A stretch of 64,000 bases of DNA from assembly GCA_013112715.1 (NCBI GenBank), contig JABFGB010000012.1:62001-126000 (forward strand), given 5' to 3'. Below the pieces are notes generated by a model. The model ran no database searches and was not told where the DNA came from. It saw only the letters and a list, made by a program, of their open reading frames with translations. Position numbers and translations under genes: made by a program. The DNA comes from Chloroflexota bacterium (lineage in GTDB: Bacteria; Chloroflexota; Anaerolineae; Aggregatilineales; J027). Positions 29,304 through 38,366 of this stretch are shown piece by piece. Each line of letters begins with the position of its first letter. The first letter of the stretch is position 1.

Positions 29304-29990
29304 CTAATTACCGCCGTCTTGGTTGGCAAGGGCTGTCAATCGGGCTAAATCGAGGATGAGAATTTTGCGGGGGATAACGCGCAGAATGCCTTCGGTTTCA
29401 AAACGCTTCAGCGTCCGACAGACCACTTCGCGCCCGGTGCCAACCACCGCCGCCAATTCTTGCTGCGAAAAATTGCGGGAAATACAGTGGCCTTCCAAAC
29501 TTGGATACCTGTCCTGTCGCAGCAAAAACAAAGCTAAACGGGCGCTGACATCGTGAAAAACCAGATCATGTACCAGATTGCTCATGGTCAAAAATTGGTC
29601 GGAAAGCAGGCCCAAAAACGCGAGCGCCAATTCCGCGTTTACCCTCAACAAATGGCATAGCTTATCGGCAGGTAAATAGAAGGCCACTCCTTTGGCCGTC
29701 GCTTCAGCATTGCAGGCCACTGCGGTTCTGCCATTCAAAACCTCGACTCCAAACGCGCCGCCCGCTTGGACAATGACCAATATTTGAATCTTGGTGCCTG
29801 CCTGCCGATAGAGCTTAACTTGACCGGATTGCAGGCAGTAAACGCCGGAGGGTATTTCGCCTTGCTGATAAAACACCTGATGGCGATCAAAAACCATTGG
29901 TTGTGCAATCGCAGCTATCGCGGCAAGGGTCGGCGCAGAAAGCTGATCAAAGCGTTCAATATGGCGTATATCTTCGATTGAGACCTGCAT
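29304..29990 (-). CDS. Crp/Fnr-family transcription regulator (second of pair)
   Basis: The ATG at 29990 (MQVSIEDIRHIERF) gives a normal family length of 228 residues; a GTG at 30050 overlapping the upstream gene would add 20 unrelated residues. The cyclic-nucleotide-binding-like domain (about 12-125) includes GEIPSGVYCLQSGQVKLYR. The C-terminal helix-turn-helix reads FSQQELAAVVGTGREVVCRTLKRFE. No N-terminal cysteine cluster of FNR type is present, so oxygen sensing by Fe-S is unlikely; a haem- or NO-sensing (DNR-like) role is possible but unproven. Last gene of the nos operon. Confidence 0.82.
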   Translation of the reverse strand: MQVSIEDIRHIERFDQLSAPTLAAIAAIAQPMVFDRHQVFYQQGEIPSGVYCLQSGQVKLYRQAGTKIQILVIVQAGGAFGVEVLNGRTAVACNAEATAKGVAFYLPADKLCHLLRVNAELALAFLGLLSDQFLTMSNLVHDLVFHDVSARLALFLLRQDRYPSLEGHCISRNFSQQELAAVVGTGREVVCRTLKRFETEGILRVIPRKILILDLARLTALANQDGGN

Positions 29991-30036
29991 AAGTGCTGCA
30001 CCGCCTCTCCAAATTGGCTCGATGAAAGGAGTCACC

Positions 30037-30714
30037 CTATTCTTTTGCACAGGGGAGCATGGTATCTAAACGCTCCGGATGAACCAGATGGATGAGTCCT
30101 TTCTCAATTAGGATTAGCCCTTGTTGTTCAAGCTGCAACAGATGGCGAGAAACGACCTCGCGCACCGTACCGACCAATTCTGCCAATTGTTCATGCGTCA
30201 AGCGCACCATCGGATAGGGGTCATGTGGCACTGCATAGTTCAGCAAGGCATCATTCAGGCGACCCGCCACCCGCCACGCCCCTAGTTTTTCGCTCAAACA
30301 CGACAACAGCGTAATGTACTCGCCATAGATTTCAAGCAACACCCGCGCCAATGCCGGATCACGGTTAACCAGTTGGGTGACGGCGCTGGCTGGTAAGATA
30401 AACAGAGTCACATCGGTATGGGCCTGTGCGCTGGCGGGGTTCATAGGTCGTGTAAACAACGGGCATGACCCAAAACAGCGTTTTTTGTCTACTAGGCACA
30501 GCGCCTGTATCCGTCCCAAGGATGACTGCTTCATTACCTTGACTTGACCCTCAAAAATGAACCACATCCCCTCGGTTGGCTCATCCTCAATGAAGATCAG
30601 TTCGCCGGGGGCATAGGTCTGGGGAATCATGAGACCAGCGAGTTTTTCCAGACTGGTCTGCGGCAGATGACTTAACGCTTTAATCGTCTCCAAATCGGCT
30701 ACGGATACACTCAT
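30037..30714 (-). CDS. Crp/Fnr-family transcription regulator (first of pair)
   Basis: A 225-residue regulator with the effector domain PGELIFIEDEPTEGMWFIFEGQVKV and helix-turn-helix LTHEQLAELVGTVREVVSRHLLQLEQQGLI. It carries scattered Cys residues (LCLVDKKRCFGSCPL) in the middle of the sensory domain rather than an FNR-type N-terminal cluster. It lies between SCO1 and a second Crp/Fnr gene at the end of the nos operon. A perfect Crp/Fnr-type palindrome upstream of nosZ is a likely target of one or both regulators. Confidence 0.85.
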   Translation of the reverse strand: MSVSVADLETIKALSHLPQTSLEKLAGLMIPQTYAPGELIFIEDEPTEGMWFIFEGQVKVMKQSSLGRIQALCLVDKKRCFGSCPLFTRPMNPASAQAHTDVTLFILPASAVTQLVNRDPALARVLLEIYGEYITLLSCLSEKLGAWRVAGRLNDALLNYAVPHDPYPMVRLTHEQLAELVGTVREVVSRHLLQLEQQGLILIEKGLIHLVHPERLDTMLPCAKE

Positions 30715-30753: not shown

Positions 30754-31377
30754 TTACTCTAATAGTAGCTCGACATCGTGCAAAATGTCGTCCGCCCCCA
30801 TCCCAAAAATAAATTGGGAGATGAGCAAACCCTCTTGATTGACCAAAAAGATGCTGGCCGTGTGATCCATTAGATAACTTAAAGCCGATTCGCCCACCTG
30901 CCGTCGGATGGCGACCACGCCGAATTGATTCAGCACGTCTTGGAGGGCATCCCCCTCGCCGCGCAACGCCACAAAATCTTCATTAAACAGCTTGATGTAA
31001 GGGCGCAAGCGGTCAAGCGTATCGCGTTCGGGGTCAACCGTGACAAACACCACCGCAAGGTCGTCGGGACGATTGATTTCTTCATAGACCCGTTTGAGAT
31101 GACCACCACTGGTAGGGCAGACATCTGGGCAGGTCATATAGCCGAAATAGATCAGCACCAACTTGCCGCGTAAATCACTGAAATGAAATTCGCCATCCGT
31201 CGAAGGCAGTGTAAAATCCTCGATTTGGCGGGGGGGCACAATGACCGCCCCCCGGATTTGTTCTTGCAACGACGGCGTGGATCGTTCCAGCCTGTCTTCG
31301 GCTTCGGTGGTTTGACCACAGGCCGCAAGTATCGGCGCTAGAAATAAGACCACAAGCATCAATCCCCAGCGTTTCAT
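30754..31377 (-). CDS. SCO1/SenC-family copper chaperone lipoprotein
   Basis: A 207-residue protein with a lipoprotein signal (LAPILAACG) and a thioredoxin-like SCO domain. The copper ligands are in place: GYMTCPDVCPTSGG (CxxxC) and the distal His in MDHTASIF. SCO proteins deliver copper to CuA sites of cytochrome oxidase, and of NosZ in some clade II systems. Its place in the nos operon, overlapping the cytochrome c gene by 4 bp, suggests that it loads the CuA centre of NosZ. No nosL gene is seen in this cluster. Confidence 0.92.
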   Translation of the reverse strand: MKRWGLMLVVLFLAPILAACGQTTEAEDRLERSTPSLQEQIRGAVIVPPRQIEDFTLPSTDGEFHFSDLRGKLVLIYFGYMTCPDVCPTSGGHLKRVYEEINRPDDLAVVFVTVDPERDTLDRLRPYIKLFNEDFVALRGEGDALQDVLNQFGVVAIRRQVGESALSYLMDHTASIFLVNQEGLLISQFIFGMGADDILHDVELLLE

Positions 31378-31955
31378 GATCCACCCCCCGGATTTTGCAG
31401 CGAGCGAATATAGGCAATGATGCTCAAAATTTGTTCATCGGTGAGCGCTGGATTACCACCTTTGGGAGGCATATCAATCCCGGTTGTGTTAGCGGCATCC
31501 CAAATCGGACGGCCCGTTTTGACAAAGGTGAGCAGATCGGCGTCGGTCAGTTCATGCACAAATTCACTGGCGACCAAATCTTTGCCGAGACCTACGACGC
31601 CATGTGCATCCACGCCATGACAGGCCGAGCAGGTTGCCACAAATAATTCCTGCCCCTGTGCGACCACCGCCGGATCATAGCCTAGATCACCCGAAGTCGA
31701 ACCGGACGCTTGGCTCACGGCACGCGGCTGCGCGGTGCGAACCGGAGCGGCATCTAGGGTGGCAATCGCCGCCGCATAGTCGGACATGGGCGGCAGCCCC
31801 GCTGACGCCTCGGCACTGGATTTTTCATTATCGTTTTTGTCTATCCATTGATAGAGCGATCCAAAGCCCAGCAGCAGACATACTAGGCCGAGGGTCAGCG
31901 CACCTATCGCACCAGCTAATGGCATCAGTTCAGAAAAATTACGATTACGAAACAT
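31374..31955 (-). CDS. Membrane-anchored mono-haem cytochrome c
   Basis: A 193-residue protein with one N-terminal transmembrane helix (about 13-36) and a single c-type haem motif CSACHG near residue 113. A later Met in GIDMPPKGGNPALTDEQI is the expected axial ligand, followed by the family's C-terminal helix (ILSIIAYIRSLQ). It probably passes electrons from the quinol pool or a cytochrome bc complex to NosZ. The 3' end overlaps the SCO1 start (ATGA). AAAGGATG lies just upstream of the ATG. Confidence 0.88.
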   Translation of the reverse strand: MFRNRNFSELMPLAGAIGALTLGLVCLLLGFGSLYQWIDKNDNEKSSAEASAGLPPMSDYAAAIATLDAAPVRTAQPRAVSQASGSTSGDLGYDPAVVAQGQELFVATCSACHGVDAHGVVGLGKDLVASEFVHELTDADLLTFVKTGRPIWDAANTTGIDMPPKGGNPALTDEQILSIIAYIRSLQNPGGGS

Positions 31956-31958
31956 GGT

Positions 31959-32339
31959 TCATCCTTTGTCGCTAACAATGATTTGAATCTGTTGGGCCGG
32001 GTGGACGGTGCAGAGACCAAGATAAACCCCCGGTGTCTGGAATTTCTGGCGCACAGTCTCGCCCGTGCCCACCCAGAAATCGCCAATCGTATGCCCCACC
32101 GTGTCGCGGTTTTCGATCACGAGGGTGTCTTTTTCACCAATCGTCAGGTGGATTTCCAGCGGCACAATATCGGGGTCTTCCCCGGCGGCGATGCGATCAC
32201 CTGTCCCGGCGGGAATCACAATGCGATATTCATGCGACTCTTTGGATTGGGTCGAACCAACGACGGTAGCCACCACAAACCCCACAAGGCCGATGATCGC
32301 AAGAACCAGAATAGCGGGCAGCACATATCGCGTGTTCAT
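31959..32339 (-). CDS. Membrane-anchored cupredoxin-like protein
   Basis: The start at 32339 gives an ATGA overlap with the NosY stop and a clean membrane-anchor start (MNTRYVLPAILVLAIIG). The 126-residue product has one N-terminal helix and a small beta domain with a type-1 copper pattern: His83 in DTVGHTIGDF, Cys110 and His113 in LGLCTVHP. The usual axial Met is absent; Gln116/Gln117 occupy the region. It may shuttle electrons or copper between the membrane and NosZ. It has no gene name that can be given with confidence. Confidence 0.78.
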   Translation of the reverse strand: MNTRYVLPAILVLAIIGLVGFVVATVVGSTQSKESHEYRIVIPAGTGDRIAAGEDPDIVPLEIHLTIGEKDTLVIENRDTVGHTIGDFWVGTGETVRQKFQTPGVYLGLCTVHPAQQIQIIVSDKG

Positions 32340-33172
32340 GCGCCGTCTCCTTGTCGTGCAAAGGCGAATTGGGCTAGGCCAAGCGGCAGCAAAATCCACA
32401 GCACCAGTCCCGCCAACATGAGGGGCATAAACATCCCCCCGAACGTATCTGAGGCATACAGTCCGGCAGGCCCTAAGACCTCCAACGAACTGAGGGCGCT
32501 GAAGATCGAGGCCATCTTAAACAGTTGCAGTGGGTTAATCATCGCCAGCAGCAGGGTGGTCTGGGTGGGCATTTGGGTGACAATTGCCGCCCCAATCAAA
32601 CCCAGATCGCCAATGAACACCAGCAGCAACCACAGAAACAGCGCCGCACCGAGAGCCGTCGAGGTTTTATGAGCCAGCGCGGAGATGAGGAAACCGACAC
32701 TCAACATGGCGAGACTAAGCAAACATGCCATACCCGTCATCACCACATAACCGGAGAGGCCATCACCGCCGCCGCGTGTCGAAAGAATGACCCCCGCCAC
32801 CCCAAAGCCGAGCAACAGGGTACTCAGTTGGGCTGAGGCCAATCCCAAAAACTTGCCAAACAGCACTTCACCTCGGTCAACGGGTTGGGCCAATAGGTAT
32901 TTCAATGCCCCTGTTTCGCGTTCACCGGAAATGCTAGATGCCCCAAACGTCAGTGCCATCAAGGGCACAAACAGCAGCACCAGATTGACCAAGCCCGTCA
33001 CCGTGCGGTTATATTCCGCCAGTTGGGTAAATTCGACATCGGGCCGACTGAGCATCGAAAGCGCCAGTACCAACCCGCCAAAAATCACGGTATACAGCAA
33101 GAACCAGCGATTACGTAGCGCGTCGCGCAGTTCTTTTTGAGCAATCAACCAGACCGCGTTGAAATTCATCAC
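32336..33172 (-). CDS. nosY: NosY-type ABC-2 permease
   Basis: A 278-residue permease with six helices. It opens with NAVWLIAQKELRDALRNRWFLLY and has the ABC-2 central segment FGASSISGERETGALKYLL and the DRGEVLFGKF strip. In known nos clusters NosY forms the membrane part of the NosDFY complex that supplies the CuZ site of NosZ. It overlaps the upstream NosD-NosF fusion by 4 bp and the downstream cupredoxin by 4 bp, so translation is probably coupled. Confidence 0.88.
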   Translation of the reverse strand: MMNFNAVWLIAQKELRDALRNRWFLLYTVIFGGLVLALSMLSRPDVEFTQLAEYNRTVTGLVNLVLLFVPLMALTFGASSISGERETGALKYLLAQPVDRGEVLFGKFLGLASAQLSTLLLGFGVAGVILSTRGGGDGLSGYVVMTGMACLLSLAMLSVGFLISALAHKTSTALGAALFLWLLLVFIGDLGLIGAAIVTQMPTQTTLLLAMINPLQLFKMASIFSALSSLEVLGPAGLYASDTFGGMFMPLMLAGLVLWILLPLGLAQFAFARQGDGA

Positions 33173-35517
33173 GATTGCACCTCCGGCACAAAACTGCTAT
33201 CCACGACATCAAAATCCTCCACCGGGATTTGGGCGGTTTCTAAGAGGCGCAGCGCCGAAATCTTGGGTTGACTGCCGACCTGCACAAACAGTGAATGCCC
33301 ATTAGGGGCGGTGCGAAAACCGCTCGTGCTGAGGAGGGCAATCGCGGCCTGCCAGTGATGCGGCGGAATCCACATCCGCAGCCATTGAGAGAGGCCGATC
33401 TCCTGTAATAAGGCATCTGGTGAACCATCCAAAATCACCTGCCCGTCGCGCAACCCCAAAACACGAGTGGCAAGCGACAGCACTTCGTCGGGGCGATGGG
33501 TCGAAAATAAAATGGTTTTGCCATCGTGATTTAATCTATGGACAAGCTGCAAAAATTCCTGTCGAGACTGGGTATCGAGATTGGCGGTGGGTTCATCAAA
33601 GAGGAGCAGGGGGGGATTACCCAATAGGCTCACCGCTAATGCCAAGCGTTGTTTCATCCCGCCCGACAGATTTTTGACAGGTTTTTGCACCTGCGCCGCC
33701 AAACCCACCCGTTCCAAAATGGGAGCGATGTCGGTCACGGCGACTTTTTTCAATTTGGCATAAAACTGCATGGTCTGGGCGACAGTCATATCATAAAAGG
33801 CGGTTTCTTGGGGAACATAGCCAATGCTGGCCCGCACCCGCTTGCCCTCACGTTTGACATCCAAGCCGTTGACCATTAACCGCCCTTGAAAATTGATCGT
33901 CCCCAACAGGCAGCGCAGGGTCGTGGTTTTGCCAGCGCCATTCGTACCCCACAAGGCCACTGCCTCGCCGGGTTGAATGGAAAACGAGACGTCGTTCAAA
34001 ATGCGATGTTTGCCATAATGTTTGCTGAGATGCACGGCGGTAATCATAGGAACAGACTCCTGTTGGTCTGGTGCAATGGATGGAGTGGCAACAGGTGATG
34101 ACTTCGCCTGTGCTGTTTTTTTGGTGACGGGCCTCTTGACAACCATCAGCAGGGGCAACATAGCAAGACCAAGCAGACCCAATGAAACCCCCAACGTTGA
34201 CCACGCCATTGTGCTAGACTGTTTTTCGAGATAGGGCGGAAAGCGATAATTCATCAACGGGGCATCATCCACCAACCGCGGTTGGGGACGCAGCACCGGA
34301 AAAGCCGCCCCGCTAAATTCAATCGCCTGTACCACTGGGCCATACGCAAAAAGCTGGATGACCGGGTATTCGTCTACCAGATTTTCAAAGACCTGATCGG
34401 CTTGATAGGTGGTTTCACCTACACCATCGCCATTGCGGTCATAGCCCGTATAATCGCTCCAATAATTGCCGCGCCCCTCGAATGACCACTGATTGCGGCT
34501 GAGGATTTCGCGCCCCCGCATACTGACCTGTTCGGTGTTTTCCAAAAAGCTGTTTTCGGTGAAGATATTGCGAGAGACCGATGGCAGCGAGGCCACGCCT
34601 TCATCGTTATACACAAAAGTATTGCCCCGAAAGGTGTTATAGACATCCACCAGCGAGGGCGAGTTATCGAGATAGACCCCCGCGACATTGCCCACAAAAA
34701 AATTATCGGTGGCGGTCACGTTGTCCATATCTTTAAGGGCCAAGCCGTAGCCGCTTGATCCCCGGTTATAGGCGAAGATGTTGTTTTGCAGCGTCGCGTC
34801 ATGCGAGGACATCAAAAACGCGCCTACCGAGTTGTTGACAAACGTATTGTCCTCGACCACTGCCCCATTGTTGTACATGAAGTGCAGGCCGTAGCGGTTG
34901 TCTTCAAAATGATTACCCCGGATGGTCAGGCCATTGGAGTACGACACAAGGGTGTCGCGGCTGTGGACGACGGTGTTGTCTACGAGGCTGATGTCGTTGC
35001 TGTACCAGATATAAAATCCATCACCCCGTAGGCCGATGTCTTCACCCTTACCCCGAATCGTGTTTTGTTGGGCCACACTGCCAGCGGCATTGTTAAAAAG
35101 TACCCCGTATAAGACATCGCTCATGTGATTTTCCAACAGGGTCGCCCGCTGTGCCTCAACCACGATACCCGCGTCTTGGTGATGTTGGACACTGCCGCTG
35201 TTGCGTAGCTCAAAACCTTGTAGGGTGACATCGGTGGCGCGTATATACACCAGACTGCCTTCGCCTTGACCATCAATGACGGGTTGCCCAACGCCGATCA
35301 GGGTGACGCTTTTTTCGATGATGACTGGCGCGGCATACACCCCACTATGCACCTCGATTACGTCACCTGTCTCGGCGGCCTCCAACGCGGCCTCAATGGT
35401 CACAAATGGGCCGTCGGGTGCGACAATCAGCCGTTGATGGTTGCCACCCTGCGCCGACGCCGGAGACATCGTGAGGGCCATGAACAGGCATATCCCGACG
35501 ATTATCCAGCGGGACAT
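33169..35517 (-). CDS. nosDF: NosD-NosF fusion: copper-binding beta-helix protein fused to ABC ATPase
   Basis: One uninterrupted 782-residue frame. Residues 1-22 are a signal peptide. Residues about 30-395 are a NosD right-handed beta-helix with repeated N-T-F/NHF turns (NGLTIRGNHFEDNRYGLHF and similar). A single transmembrane helix at about 437-461 follows, then a short linker. The ATPase domain starts near 491 (ITAVHLSKHYGKH): Walker A GTNGAGKTT (524-532), signature LSGGMKQRLAL, Walker B LLLFDEPTA and FSTHRPDEV. NosD is periplasmic and NosF cytoplasmic in known systems; the helix between them gives exactly that topology. The domain order nosD-nosF-nosY matches standard operons. Confidence 0.9.
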   Translation of the reverse strand: MSRWIIVGICLFMALTMSPASAQGGNHQRLIVAPDGPFVTIEAALEAAETGDVIEVHSGVYAAPVIIEKSVTLIGVGQPVIDGQGEGSLVYIRATDVTLQGFELRNSGSVQHHQDAGIVVEAQRATLLENHMSDVLYGVLFNNAAGSVAQQNTIRGKGEDIGLRGDGFYIWYSNDISLVDNTVVHSRDTLVSYSNGLTIRGNHFEDNRYGLHFMYNNGAVVEDNTFVNNSVGAFLMSSHDATLQNNIFAYNRGSSGYGLALKDMDNVTATDNFFVGNVAGVYLDNSPSLVDVYNTFRGNTFVYNDEGVASLPSVSRNIFTENSFLENTEQVSMRGREILSRNQWSFEGRGNYWSDYTGYDRNGDGVGETTYQADQVFENLVDEYPVIQLFAYGPVVQAIEFSGAAFPVLRPQPRLVDDAPLMNYRFPPYLEKQSSTMAWSTLGVSLGLLGLAMLPLLMVVKRPVTKKTAQAKSSPVATPSIAPDQQESVPMITAVHLSKHYGKHRILNDVSFSIQPGEAVALWGTNGAGKTTTLRCLLGTINFQGRLMVNGLDVKREGKRVRASIGYVPQETAFYDMTVAQTMQFYAKLKKVAVTDIAPILERVGLAAQVQKPVKNLSGGMKQRLALAVSLLGNPPLLLFDEPTANLDTQSRQEFLQLVHRLNHDGKTILFSTHRPDEVLSLATRVLGLRDGQVILDGSPDALLQEIGLSQWLRMWIPPHHWQAAIALLSTSGFRTAPNGHSLFVQVGSQPKISALRLLETAQIPVEDFDVVDSSFVPEVQS

Positions 35518-35518
35518 T

Positions 35519-36235
35519 TTACTTAGCTCCTTCAGGCGTTGGGGGAGTTGTCACCGCAGAACGCCCCCGCCGAGCCACAATCAATGCCCACACCAGCGCC
35601 ACAACGATGCACACGCTGGCGGCAAAAACCATGTACCAACCTGTGTCCAAGCTGGCGATGGTTTCAAATTGACCCACCTTGCCCTCGCCCCAGATCGGCG
35701 GGGTAAAGGGGTGAATCGAACTGGAGAATGGAGCATTCCGGTCAAGATTCTGCCCACTATCGCGCAGCCAGTAATAGAGATCACCCAGAAAAACAAAGGG
35801 GAAGGATAGGGGCGGCAATACCAACAACCAGACGAATTTCCGCCCACGCCATTGAATAAATTGCCCAACCGCTGTCAGGGTCAGCAGCACCGCAAAGGCA
35901 TAGACGCTGATTTCGGCAATCGAACGTTCAAATTCGGCGGCATCGTCCAGCTTCCGCATCCCAATGTAGTGATTAAGCGAATTGAGTTCGCGCAGTTCGT
36001 CAAATTCAGGGTCGCGTCCGGCCATTCGGTCTACATAGACCAAAATATCGAGACCGCCGCGATATTCATATTGCACTGCATCCAAGTGCATATTCCAATA
36101 AGGTTTCGACATGGATTGCAGGATCAAAATCGCCGCCACAATCAGCAGGACTGATGGAACGGCCCGTAAGACTTTTTGCCAGATGGCCCTAGTGTTGGTG
36201 GTTGAAGGATTTAAAGAGTGTGTCATGGTGGTCAT
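35519..36235 (-). CDS. Conserved nos-cluster membrane protein with NHYIGM motif
   Basis: A 238-residue protein with four transmembrane helices (about 25-42, 108-128, 133-156 and 202-225). Between the first two is an extracytoplasmic segment with YWNMHLDAVQYEYRGGLDIL and LNSLNHYIGMRKL; the His, Tyr and Met residues could bind a metal. Similar proteins occur near nosZ and copper-enzyme assembly genes in other bacteria, but their role is not established. GGAG lies eight bases before the ATG. It is placed between nosZ and the NosD-NosF fusion, 1 bp from the latter. Whether it equals the clade II NosB protein cannot be decided here. Confidence 0.72.
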   Translation of the reverse strand: MTTMTHSLNPSTTNTRAIWQKVLRAVPSVLLIVAAILILQSMSKPYWNMHLDAVQYEYRGGLDILVYVDRMAGRDPEFDELRELNSLNHYIGMRKLDDAAEFERSIAEISVYAFAVLLTLTAVGQFIQWRGRKFVWLLVLPPLSFPFVFLGDLYYWLRDSGQNLDRNAPFSSSIHPFTPPIWGEGKVGQFETIASLDTGWYMVFAASVCIVVALVWALIVARRGRSAVTTPPTPEGAK

Positions 36236-36318: not shown

Positions 36319-38295
36319 CTAGGGTTGGACGTTGAAATACCCCATCATTTCGAGGTGCAGCGCCGAGCAGAACTCAGTGCAGTACCATGTAAAGACCCCG
36401 GGACGAACGGCGTCAAACTCAAAGGTGACGGTTTCACCGGGTTCAATACTCAGGTTGATGTTATAGAAAGGAATCGAGAAGCCGTGTGTGGCATCGCGGG
36501 CACGCTCAACATTGGTGATCGTCCAAACGACATGATCGCCCTGTTGAATTTCGACGTGTTCCGGCGTAAAGTGGCTGCGGACGGCGGTCATGCGCACATG
36601 GACAACATTACCATCCCGTTCAACACCCTCTTCGCCTTGTTTTACCGAGTTGGGGTCTACGGATTGCGTCAGCGGATTCCAACCTACTTCAGGATAGACA
36701 TCCCACGCCTTGAGCTTGTCGGCCTTCATGATTTGGGCATAGTGGGGTTCGCCAGCCGTCAGTGGCAAGTCATACAACACTTGCATGGTCTCACCGGATT
36801 GCGAAATATCTACCAGTTGCAGATTTTGGGGCAGCAGCGGGCCAGTCGAGAGGAAACGATCAATTGACCACTTGTTGAGGGCAACCAGATACGTGCCGTC
36901 GGGTGAAACGGTGTCCCCTTCAGCGGCAGCGATATGACCGACGTTATATTGAACTGGGATACGGCCTTGCAGCGCCCAGCCATCCTGTGGACGATAACCT
37001 TCCGCGCCGAGACTCCACCGTGCAACGGCTGAATCGAGGAACAAGCTGGTATAGGCATAACCCTGATTGTCAAATTGGGTGTGGAGTGGCCCAAGTCCTA
37101 GTTCGACCTGTGTCTCCAGCACGGATTCCAATGGCAGAATCGGCACACCATAGGGGTCGGTTTCGCTGGTGCCTGCTGCAATTGCTGCCTGCAATTTGGC
37201 AAAGCTATAGACGCTGACGTGGGGGTCAAGTTTGCCCGCCACCACCATAAAATCACCATGCGGGGCAATGTCTACACCGTGTGGGCTGCGGGGTTCGGGG
37301 ACAAAGTAGAGCAGGCCATTTTCGTTGACCGTTTCGAGCGGAATGACGCGCATCCCGTTGATGTCCACTGTATTTCCCGCTTGGGCAACGGCCTCGGCTG
37401 CCTTTAGGTTAATGGCATGTAGATAGTCGTGGGTATTCTGGCTGACGCCTGCTTCAAACGGGGGATTGCCAGATTCAATACCACCTGTCGCCATTTCGGT
37501 ATTGATGGAGTTGCAGAAGACCCAACCTTCGGAAACACCTTTACCCGCGTCGCACAGGTCTTGCCAATAGGGAGGCAGTTCCATCGCAAATGAGGCACTT
37601 TCATCAATGCGCCCCGTAGCACGGTCAAATTTCCAGAACGTAATCATCCCACGATAGCTGCTTTGGTAATCGCCGATTGGGGCATATTCGCCACCCAGCG
37701 GATGGGCATATTGACCACCTTCAACAATGTATTCGGTGTTGGGGGTCACAAACGTACCGCCGTGATCGTTGAGATAGATGGGGTTGGTGACAATTTGTTT
37801 GGTCTCGAAGTCGCGCAGGTCAATCACTGCCACGCGCCCATTGGCTTTATCCCCAATGAACAAATACTCGCCATCATATTCGCCATTGGTTTCACTGAGC
37901 GACGGGTGGTGCGAATCGCCCCAACGAATTTCTTGACCGTCAATATTGCCTTGATCGAGCACTTCATTGCCCGCGCCATAGCCATACCCCTGCCACGGTT
38001 CGGGGGTGAACACACCAATGGTACGCAGCAGGCGCATGGATGGAATTCCGATAGCAAAAACCTGTCCGCTGTGACCGCCCGACGCAAACATGACGTATTC
38101 ATCCATCACGCCGCTTGGGGTATAGGTCATGGCCGCCGCCCGTAGGTCATCTTCGGTCAGGCCGCGTGCTTCGGCAATTTCTTGCCAACCCGGTCCCTGC
38201 GCCTTGACGTTGGTTTTGGTGGTAAAGGTGCGCCCGACTGAGATACCAATCGCGGCGACCAACACGATAATCAGAAACGTTCGCAACTTGCTCAT
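36319..38295 (-). CDS. nosZ: Nitrous oxide reductase, clade II (Sec-dependent)
   Basis: The ATG at 38295 has AAGGAG eight bases upstream; a start eight codons earlier lacks one. The 658-residue product has a Sec-type signal without a twin Arg (LRTFLIIVLVAAIGISVG), typical of clade II. The propeller carries CuZ ligand motifs such as DSHHPSLS (127-134) and paired His in later blades (NDHGGT, RSPHGVD, LGPLHTQF). The C-terminal cupredoxin CuA domain has Cys639, Cys643, His647 and Met650 in CTEFCSALHLEMM, plus an upstream His in DATHGF. It reduces N2O to N2 in the cell envelope and is the first gene of the nos operon. Confidence 0.96.
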   Translation of the reverse strand: MSKLRTFLIIVLVAAIGISVGRTFTTKTNVKAQGPGWQEIAEARGLTEDDLRAAAMTYTPSGVMDEYVMFASGGHSGQVFAIGIPSMRLLRTIGVFTPEPWQGYGYGAGNEVLDQGNIDGQEIRWGDSHHPSLSETNGEYDGEYLFIGDKANGRVAVIDLRDFETKQIVTNPIYLNDHGGTFVTPNTEYIVEGGQYAHPLGGEYAPIGDYQSSYRGMITFWKFDRATGRIDESASFAMELPPYWQDLCDAGKGVSEGWVFCNSINTEMATGGIESGNPPFEAGVSQNTHDYLHAINLKAAEAVAQAGNTVDINGMRVIPLETVNENGLLYFVPEPRSPHGVDIAPHGDFMVVAGKLDPHVSVYSFAKLQAAIAAGTSETDPYGVPILPLESVLETQVELGLGPLHTQFDNQGYAYTSLFLDSAVARWSLGAEGYRPQDGWALQGRIPVQYNVGHIAAAEGDTVSPDGTYLVALNKWSIDRFLSTGPLLPQNLQLVDISQSGETMQVLYDLPLTAGEPHYAQIMKADKLKAWDVYPEVGWNPLTQSVDPNSVKQGEEGVERDGNVVHVRMTAVRSHFTPEHVEIQQGDHVVWTITNVERARDATHGFSIPFYNINLSIEPGETVTFEFDAVRPGVFTWYCTEFCSALHLEMMGYFNVQP

Positions 38296-38366
38296 AAACA
38301 CTCCTTGTGCAAGATTCAATTTTCAAATGCCATGCTTACATCTTGCCAAAGGTCTGATTGACGCAC

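Follow-up and report, generated by a model that had tools for sequence, protein, structure and literature searches.

The nosDF gene of this Chloroflexota bacterium encodes NosD and NosF, two components of the NosDFY transporter, in a single polypeptide, and it would appear to yield two products: the full-length NosDF and a free NosF of 292 aa that starts at Met491, keeping the transporter at a NosD:NosF:NosY ratio of 1:2:2. Judged from sequence, this reading is given a probability of roughly 0.6. The fusion itself is genuine, and it recurs across Chloroflexota as a variant of NosDFY. Maturation of the principal biological N2O sink depends on NosDFY, and in soils and wastewater Chloroflexota are abundant reducers of this gas.

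The window, i.e., the whole 64,000-nt stretch of DNA that was analysed, carries nosDF at positions 33169–35517 of the reverse strand, as are the parts of nosDF and the nos-cluster genes, from nosZ to Sco1, given below. The frame runs from an ATG to a TGA without a stop and encodes 782 aa, so the first-pass annotation was right to call it continuous. It begins with a putative Sec signal peptide (residues 1–22; 35452–35517), with an AxA site after Ala22 recognized by eye, followed by the NosD beta-helix domain (residues 29–432; 34222–35433), a transmembrane helix (residues 439–459; 34141–34203) with Lys/Arg behind it (positive inside), a disordered and fast-evolving cytoplasmic linker (residues 460–490; 34048–34140), and the NosF ATPase domain (33169–34047), which is also the extent of the predicted free product. 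The NosD half matches TIGR04247 with 400.5 bits (cut-off 300) over residues 40–422 and model positions 1–377 of 377, and a profile search placed ABC_tran at residues 506–644. An AlphaFold2 model, for which 40 fused homologues served as input, has a mean pLDDT of 88 and consists of an N-terminal helix (2–16), the beta-helix, the transmembrane helix (439–459; 437–461 in the first-pass annotation), and the ABC domain (491–773), with linker residues 462–486 disordered at a pLDDT under 50. Superposition of the modelled NosD half on solved NosD gives a Z of 46.1 with 7osf_A and 45.7 with 7o0y_A, and the NosF half matches solved NosF (7o0y_B). The earlier claims of a full set of NosF motifs and of a topology that suits both halves also hold: Walker A Lys530, Q-loop Gln570, the signature at 617–620, Walker B Asp641/Glu642, and H-loop His674 are invariant in the 40 fused homologues, and signal peptide, periplasmic NosD, helix, and cytoplasmic ATPase follow one another in the correct order. 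Frame and model together show one chain, in which NosD, predicted to be periplasmic, is joined to a complete NosF ATPase by one transmembrane helix and, on the cytoplasmic side, a flexible linker of ~30 residues. It departs from the typical NosD, which is separate, soluble, and periplasmic (typical traits that TIGR04247 does not require), in being joined to NosF and in having a transmembrane helix.

The ATPase half is assigned as an orthologue of NosF rather than of another ABC ATPase, as judged by identity and NosY adjacency and not by a NosF-specific model. It is 48–58% identical to the NosF that adjoins NosD in split relatives, versus ~36% for the other ABC ATPases of the genome. The partner permease gene, nosY (32336–33172), overlaps the end of nosDF by 4 nt, in keeping with the pairing proposed earlier, and has a strong Shine-Dalgarno sequence (SD; −13.1); the only matches of its product in the PDB are to NosY (E 2.6e-21).

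The cluster is ordered nosZ, membrane protein, nosDF, nosY, cupredoxin-like protein, cytochrome c, and Sco1. The first gene encodes a Sec-dependent (clade II) nitrous-oxide reductase (36319–38319; TIGR04246, 825 bits, cut-off 625). Between nosZ and nosDF is a membrane protein of 238 aa (35519–36235) without a Pfam or NCBIfam match, which we take to resemble NosB of clade II clusters; relatives of it adjoin nosD elsewhere, e.g., at the start of the L176 frame described below. A cupredoxin-like protein (31959–32399) was recognized by eye and has no family match, while a c-type cytochrome (31374–31955) and a Sco1/SenC copper chaperone (30754–31377) were identified by profile matches. Following the cluster are two adjacent, slightly overlapping regulators of the Crp/Fnr type (29304–30050 and 30037–30714), and this pair likely regulates the nos genes. 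In other systems, NosL hands copper to NosDFY; a search for NosL (PF05573) in the genome of the window (96% complete) gave no match. NosL is missing from some known nos clusters too, and its absence is therefore not counted against membership in the NosDFY family. In this genome, the Sco1-like, cupredoxin-like, and cytochrome c genes are located directly downstream of nosY.

Since the genome is a metagenome assembly, as are most of those surveyed, the fusion might be an artefact of a stop codon overlooked, or a frame error introduced, at the junction; in favour of this, there is a split relative with a single in-frame TAG (G026). However, three other genomes of the genus, at 92–94% identity, have an identical open frame across the junction, and the open frame is shared by dozens of genomes more. 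The linkers of the genus genomes differ by substitutions and by a 9-bp indel that is itself in-frame, so the fusion is not a sequencing error, and conservation of the fused frame excludes chance. An artefact at the junction is refuted by these independent genomes, and the chance of one is negligible.

Fusion of nosD to nosF turns out to be recurrent and common in the phylum rather than singular. Class and phylum samples of Chloroflexota contain 113 distinct NosD-NosF loci, 61 of them fused and 52 split. Within the order of the window, full-length NosD was found in 28 genomes, with seven fused and 21 split. The nos cluster is also variable within the genus, one member of which (G002) lacks a full NosD. 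Separate genes whose stop and start fall at this same point had been named in advance as grounds for rejecting the fusion; such loci do exist, as the 21 split genomes of the order attest, but what they reveal is a pair of interchangeable forms and not an error. In a tree of NosD plus NosF from 112 loci, at least nine changes of state are needed, seven of which are forced by well-supported branches. One split locus (L133) is nested within the fused f46 clade and looks like a reversal, i.e., a fission, possibly at the internal start. Among 80 named loci from outside the phylum, single fused cases occur in Phycisphaeraceae and in candidate division KSB1, while the Proteobacteria and Bacteroidota loci are split. 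In Anaerolineae SSC4 (L131/L176; CP059258.1), the upstream membrane protein, NosD, NosF, and NosY are read in one frame of 1258 residues; this apparent D-F-Y triple fusion was set aside as a likely consensus artefact, as the sequence includes 18 ambiguous bases (Ns), some of them at gene junctions. No mention of a NosD-NosF fusion was found in the searchable literature.

The split relatives indicate how the fusion could arise. Loci of this type in the same order (e.g., G016 and G026) share the domains, the C-terminal helix, and the D-F-Y order with nosDF at 50–56% identity, but a stop codon ends NosD and NosF starts within a few bases. In many of them the end of NosD and the start of NosF overlap by 4 nt (ATGA), and in some (L153, L032, and L043) the split genes share one frame. 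Given such an overlap, and sometimes a common frame, loss of one stop codon or a small indel is enough to fuse the genes. All 52 split NosDs sampled from the phylum carry a hydrophobic C-terminal segment like that of the fused NosDs. The first-pass annotation was correct that a properly placed helix provides the topology required by both halves, but the helix did not originate with the fusion, which needed only a stop loss or a frame change in a NosD that already bore it. The fusion would then have arisen repeatedly from a membrane-anchored NosD with its stop codon at the NosF start. The helix is missing from most NosDs of Proteobacteria and Bacteroidota. A C-terminal transmembrane helix has likewise been predicted in the NosDs of Bacillus azotoformans (PMC3475470), although these are unfused and the gene order is nosD-nosY-nosF or a variant of it.

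nosDF resembles the NosDFY of P. stutzeri (PDB 7o0y series) in its NosD fold, NosF catalytic motifs, NosY partner, and clustering with nosZ. As stated in the first-pass annotation, however, P. stutzeri NosD, NosF, and NosY are separate chains, and they assemble as 1:2:2. This ratio was read off PDB chain counts, where the main constructs have 16 NosD chains in 16 entries, 30 NosF chains in 15, and 34 NosY chains in 17. At 436 aa, P. stutzeri NosD stops at the point where the anchor of the Chloroflexota proteins starts, with the alignment reaching residue 430, and the 1:2:2 composition is known for P. stutzeri alone, whose NosD is unanchored. A plain fusion produces as many NosD as NosF, unlike 1:2:2, and the solved ratio conflicts with the earlier proposal of a single chain that couples copper loading to ATP hydrolysis. 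Either the fused complex differs in composition, or free NosF is made as well. A second NosF gene was sought in seven genomes and none was found, the next-best ATPases scoring far below the fused NosF in each case.

A candidate source of free NosF lies in the linker itself. An internal ATG (Met491; 34045–34047), the homologue of the start codon in stand-alone NosF genes, is preceded at a distance of 9 nt by an SD-like AGGAG (34057–34061; −6.9 kcal/mol) that does not vary among four genomes of the genus, and a 29-nt invariant run spans both within an otherwise diverging linker. The genome carries a canonical anti-SD, and in about 360 kb of it, used as a baseline, an SD of −6.9 kcal/mol is reached by 6.6% of internal in-frame ATGs versus 31% of gene starts. 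Across fused genes, an ATG is found exactly at the NosF start column in 28 of 60; its SD energy (−5.40) is that of true split NosF starts (−5.39) and stronger than at internal ATGs (P 3e-4). Counting any in-frame linker ATG with an SD, 39 of 59 fused genes have one, where windows taken from within these genes predict 9.5; with one gene per family, the figures are 14.7 of 20 and 2.9. The tails of split NosDs, which are the same kind of sequence behind the same helix, have five times fewer (4.4 per 1000 codons versus 22.5 in fused linkers; P 2e-4). As true starts do, these sites show a GG peak at −10 to −7, which is present in 20 of 24 cases versus 39% of controls (P 1e-5), a count in which some alternative ATGs were chosen as the best in their linker.

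The mRNA is also open at these sites. At the ATG it is more open than roughly 82% of the gene (P 4e-8; P 2e-4 on family means), an effect that is local, falling to chance level 60 nt to either side. Alternative linker ATGs are likewise unfolded (0.77; P 7e-5), whereas fused genes without an ATG at the start column give no such signal there. L167 has lost the start codon but carries a substitute with a strong SD 3 codons upstream, and L120 has one, also with a strong SD, 16 codons upstream. The start-column Met has changed twice versus about ten times per linker column, in clades picked for this contrast after the data had been seen. A hold-out of eight new fused genes, too few and too related for an independent test, included six with a linker ATG and SD, two of which have the ATG 50 codons upstream beside the helix, and two without, both from family f104. 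From these comparisons, it is somewhat better than an even bet that one gene supplies two products, with initiation in the linker providing a second, untethered NosF from a start that has shifted yet been kept across many Chloroflexota families.

The same signals might instead be relics of a separate nosF within a simple fusion that makes one product, two NosDF and two NosY then forming a 2:2:2 complex whose two anchored NosD domains either alternate or leave one idle. We consider this unlikely, but several observations speak for it. A linker ATG with an SD is missing from Thermoflexus (f18) and from most fused genes of f104, and no second NosF copy was found in the genomes checked, so these lineages at least would have to rely on NosDF by itself and not every fused gene gives a second product; in Phycisphaeraceae and KSB1, the linker ATGs have weak SDs (−3.8 and −2.9). 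Shuffling synonymous codons near the internal ATG, with the amino acids fixed, revealed no SD enrichment (P 0.10), which indicates that the excess is carried by the amino acids of the linker (such as the Glu/Lys-Gly/Asp pair before Met) and counts against selection at the codon level. The internal-start signal may be partly a relic, and a true 2:2:2 machine may exist, particularly where the internal start is missing. Relics should fade, however, and the start Met, GG peak, and unfolded mRNA persist in fused clades that are about 40–55% identical, even as the linker around the start has turned over. In addition, the ATG moves yet stays in frame with an SD, and the signal is missing from split NosD tails. 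Cleavage of a single chain by a protease within the linker would also release NosF from an anchored NosD, with the fusion merely equalising amounts, and the linker is indeed disordered and exposed. This route is improbable: the alignment, inspected by eye, has no conserved cleavage motif in the linker, cleavage alone gives NosD and NosF at 1:1, and the SD and unfolded mRNA at the ATG are left unexplained.

If two products are made, ribosomes would initiate at Met491 as well, by way of the AGGAG nine bases upstream, to give free NosF. A 1:2:2 transporter, as in the three-gene system of P. stutzeri, would then form from a single NosDF, a single free NosF, and two NosY, with a tether on just one of the NosF copies, as the start signals suggest. 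By analogy, this transporter would spend ATP in delivering copper or a copper-sulfur unit to apo-NosZ by way of NosD, and the fusion would guarantee exactly one tethered NosD per complex. A comparable arrangement is known from Cas8b/Cas11b (PMC11899642), where one frame yields a long protein and, through an internal start, its C-terminal part as extra subunit copies, although that case was shown experimentally and concerns a CRISPR effector complex, not a transporter.

The fusion also affects how nos clusters are read from genomes, since a nosF inside a nosD fusion can go unseen and look absent in Chloroflexota. For instance, a Thermoflexus genome study listed nosZDYL as the full system, with nosF missing (PMC8129789). 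If NosDF and NosF do come from one gene, this would offer a direct test of why there is one NosD per two ATPases, and of whether NosD has to be linked physically to one given ATPase subunit.
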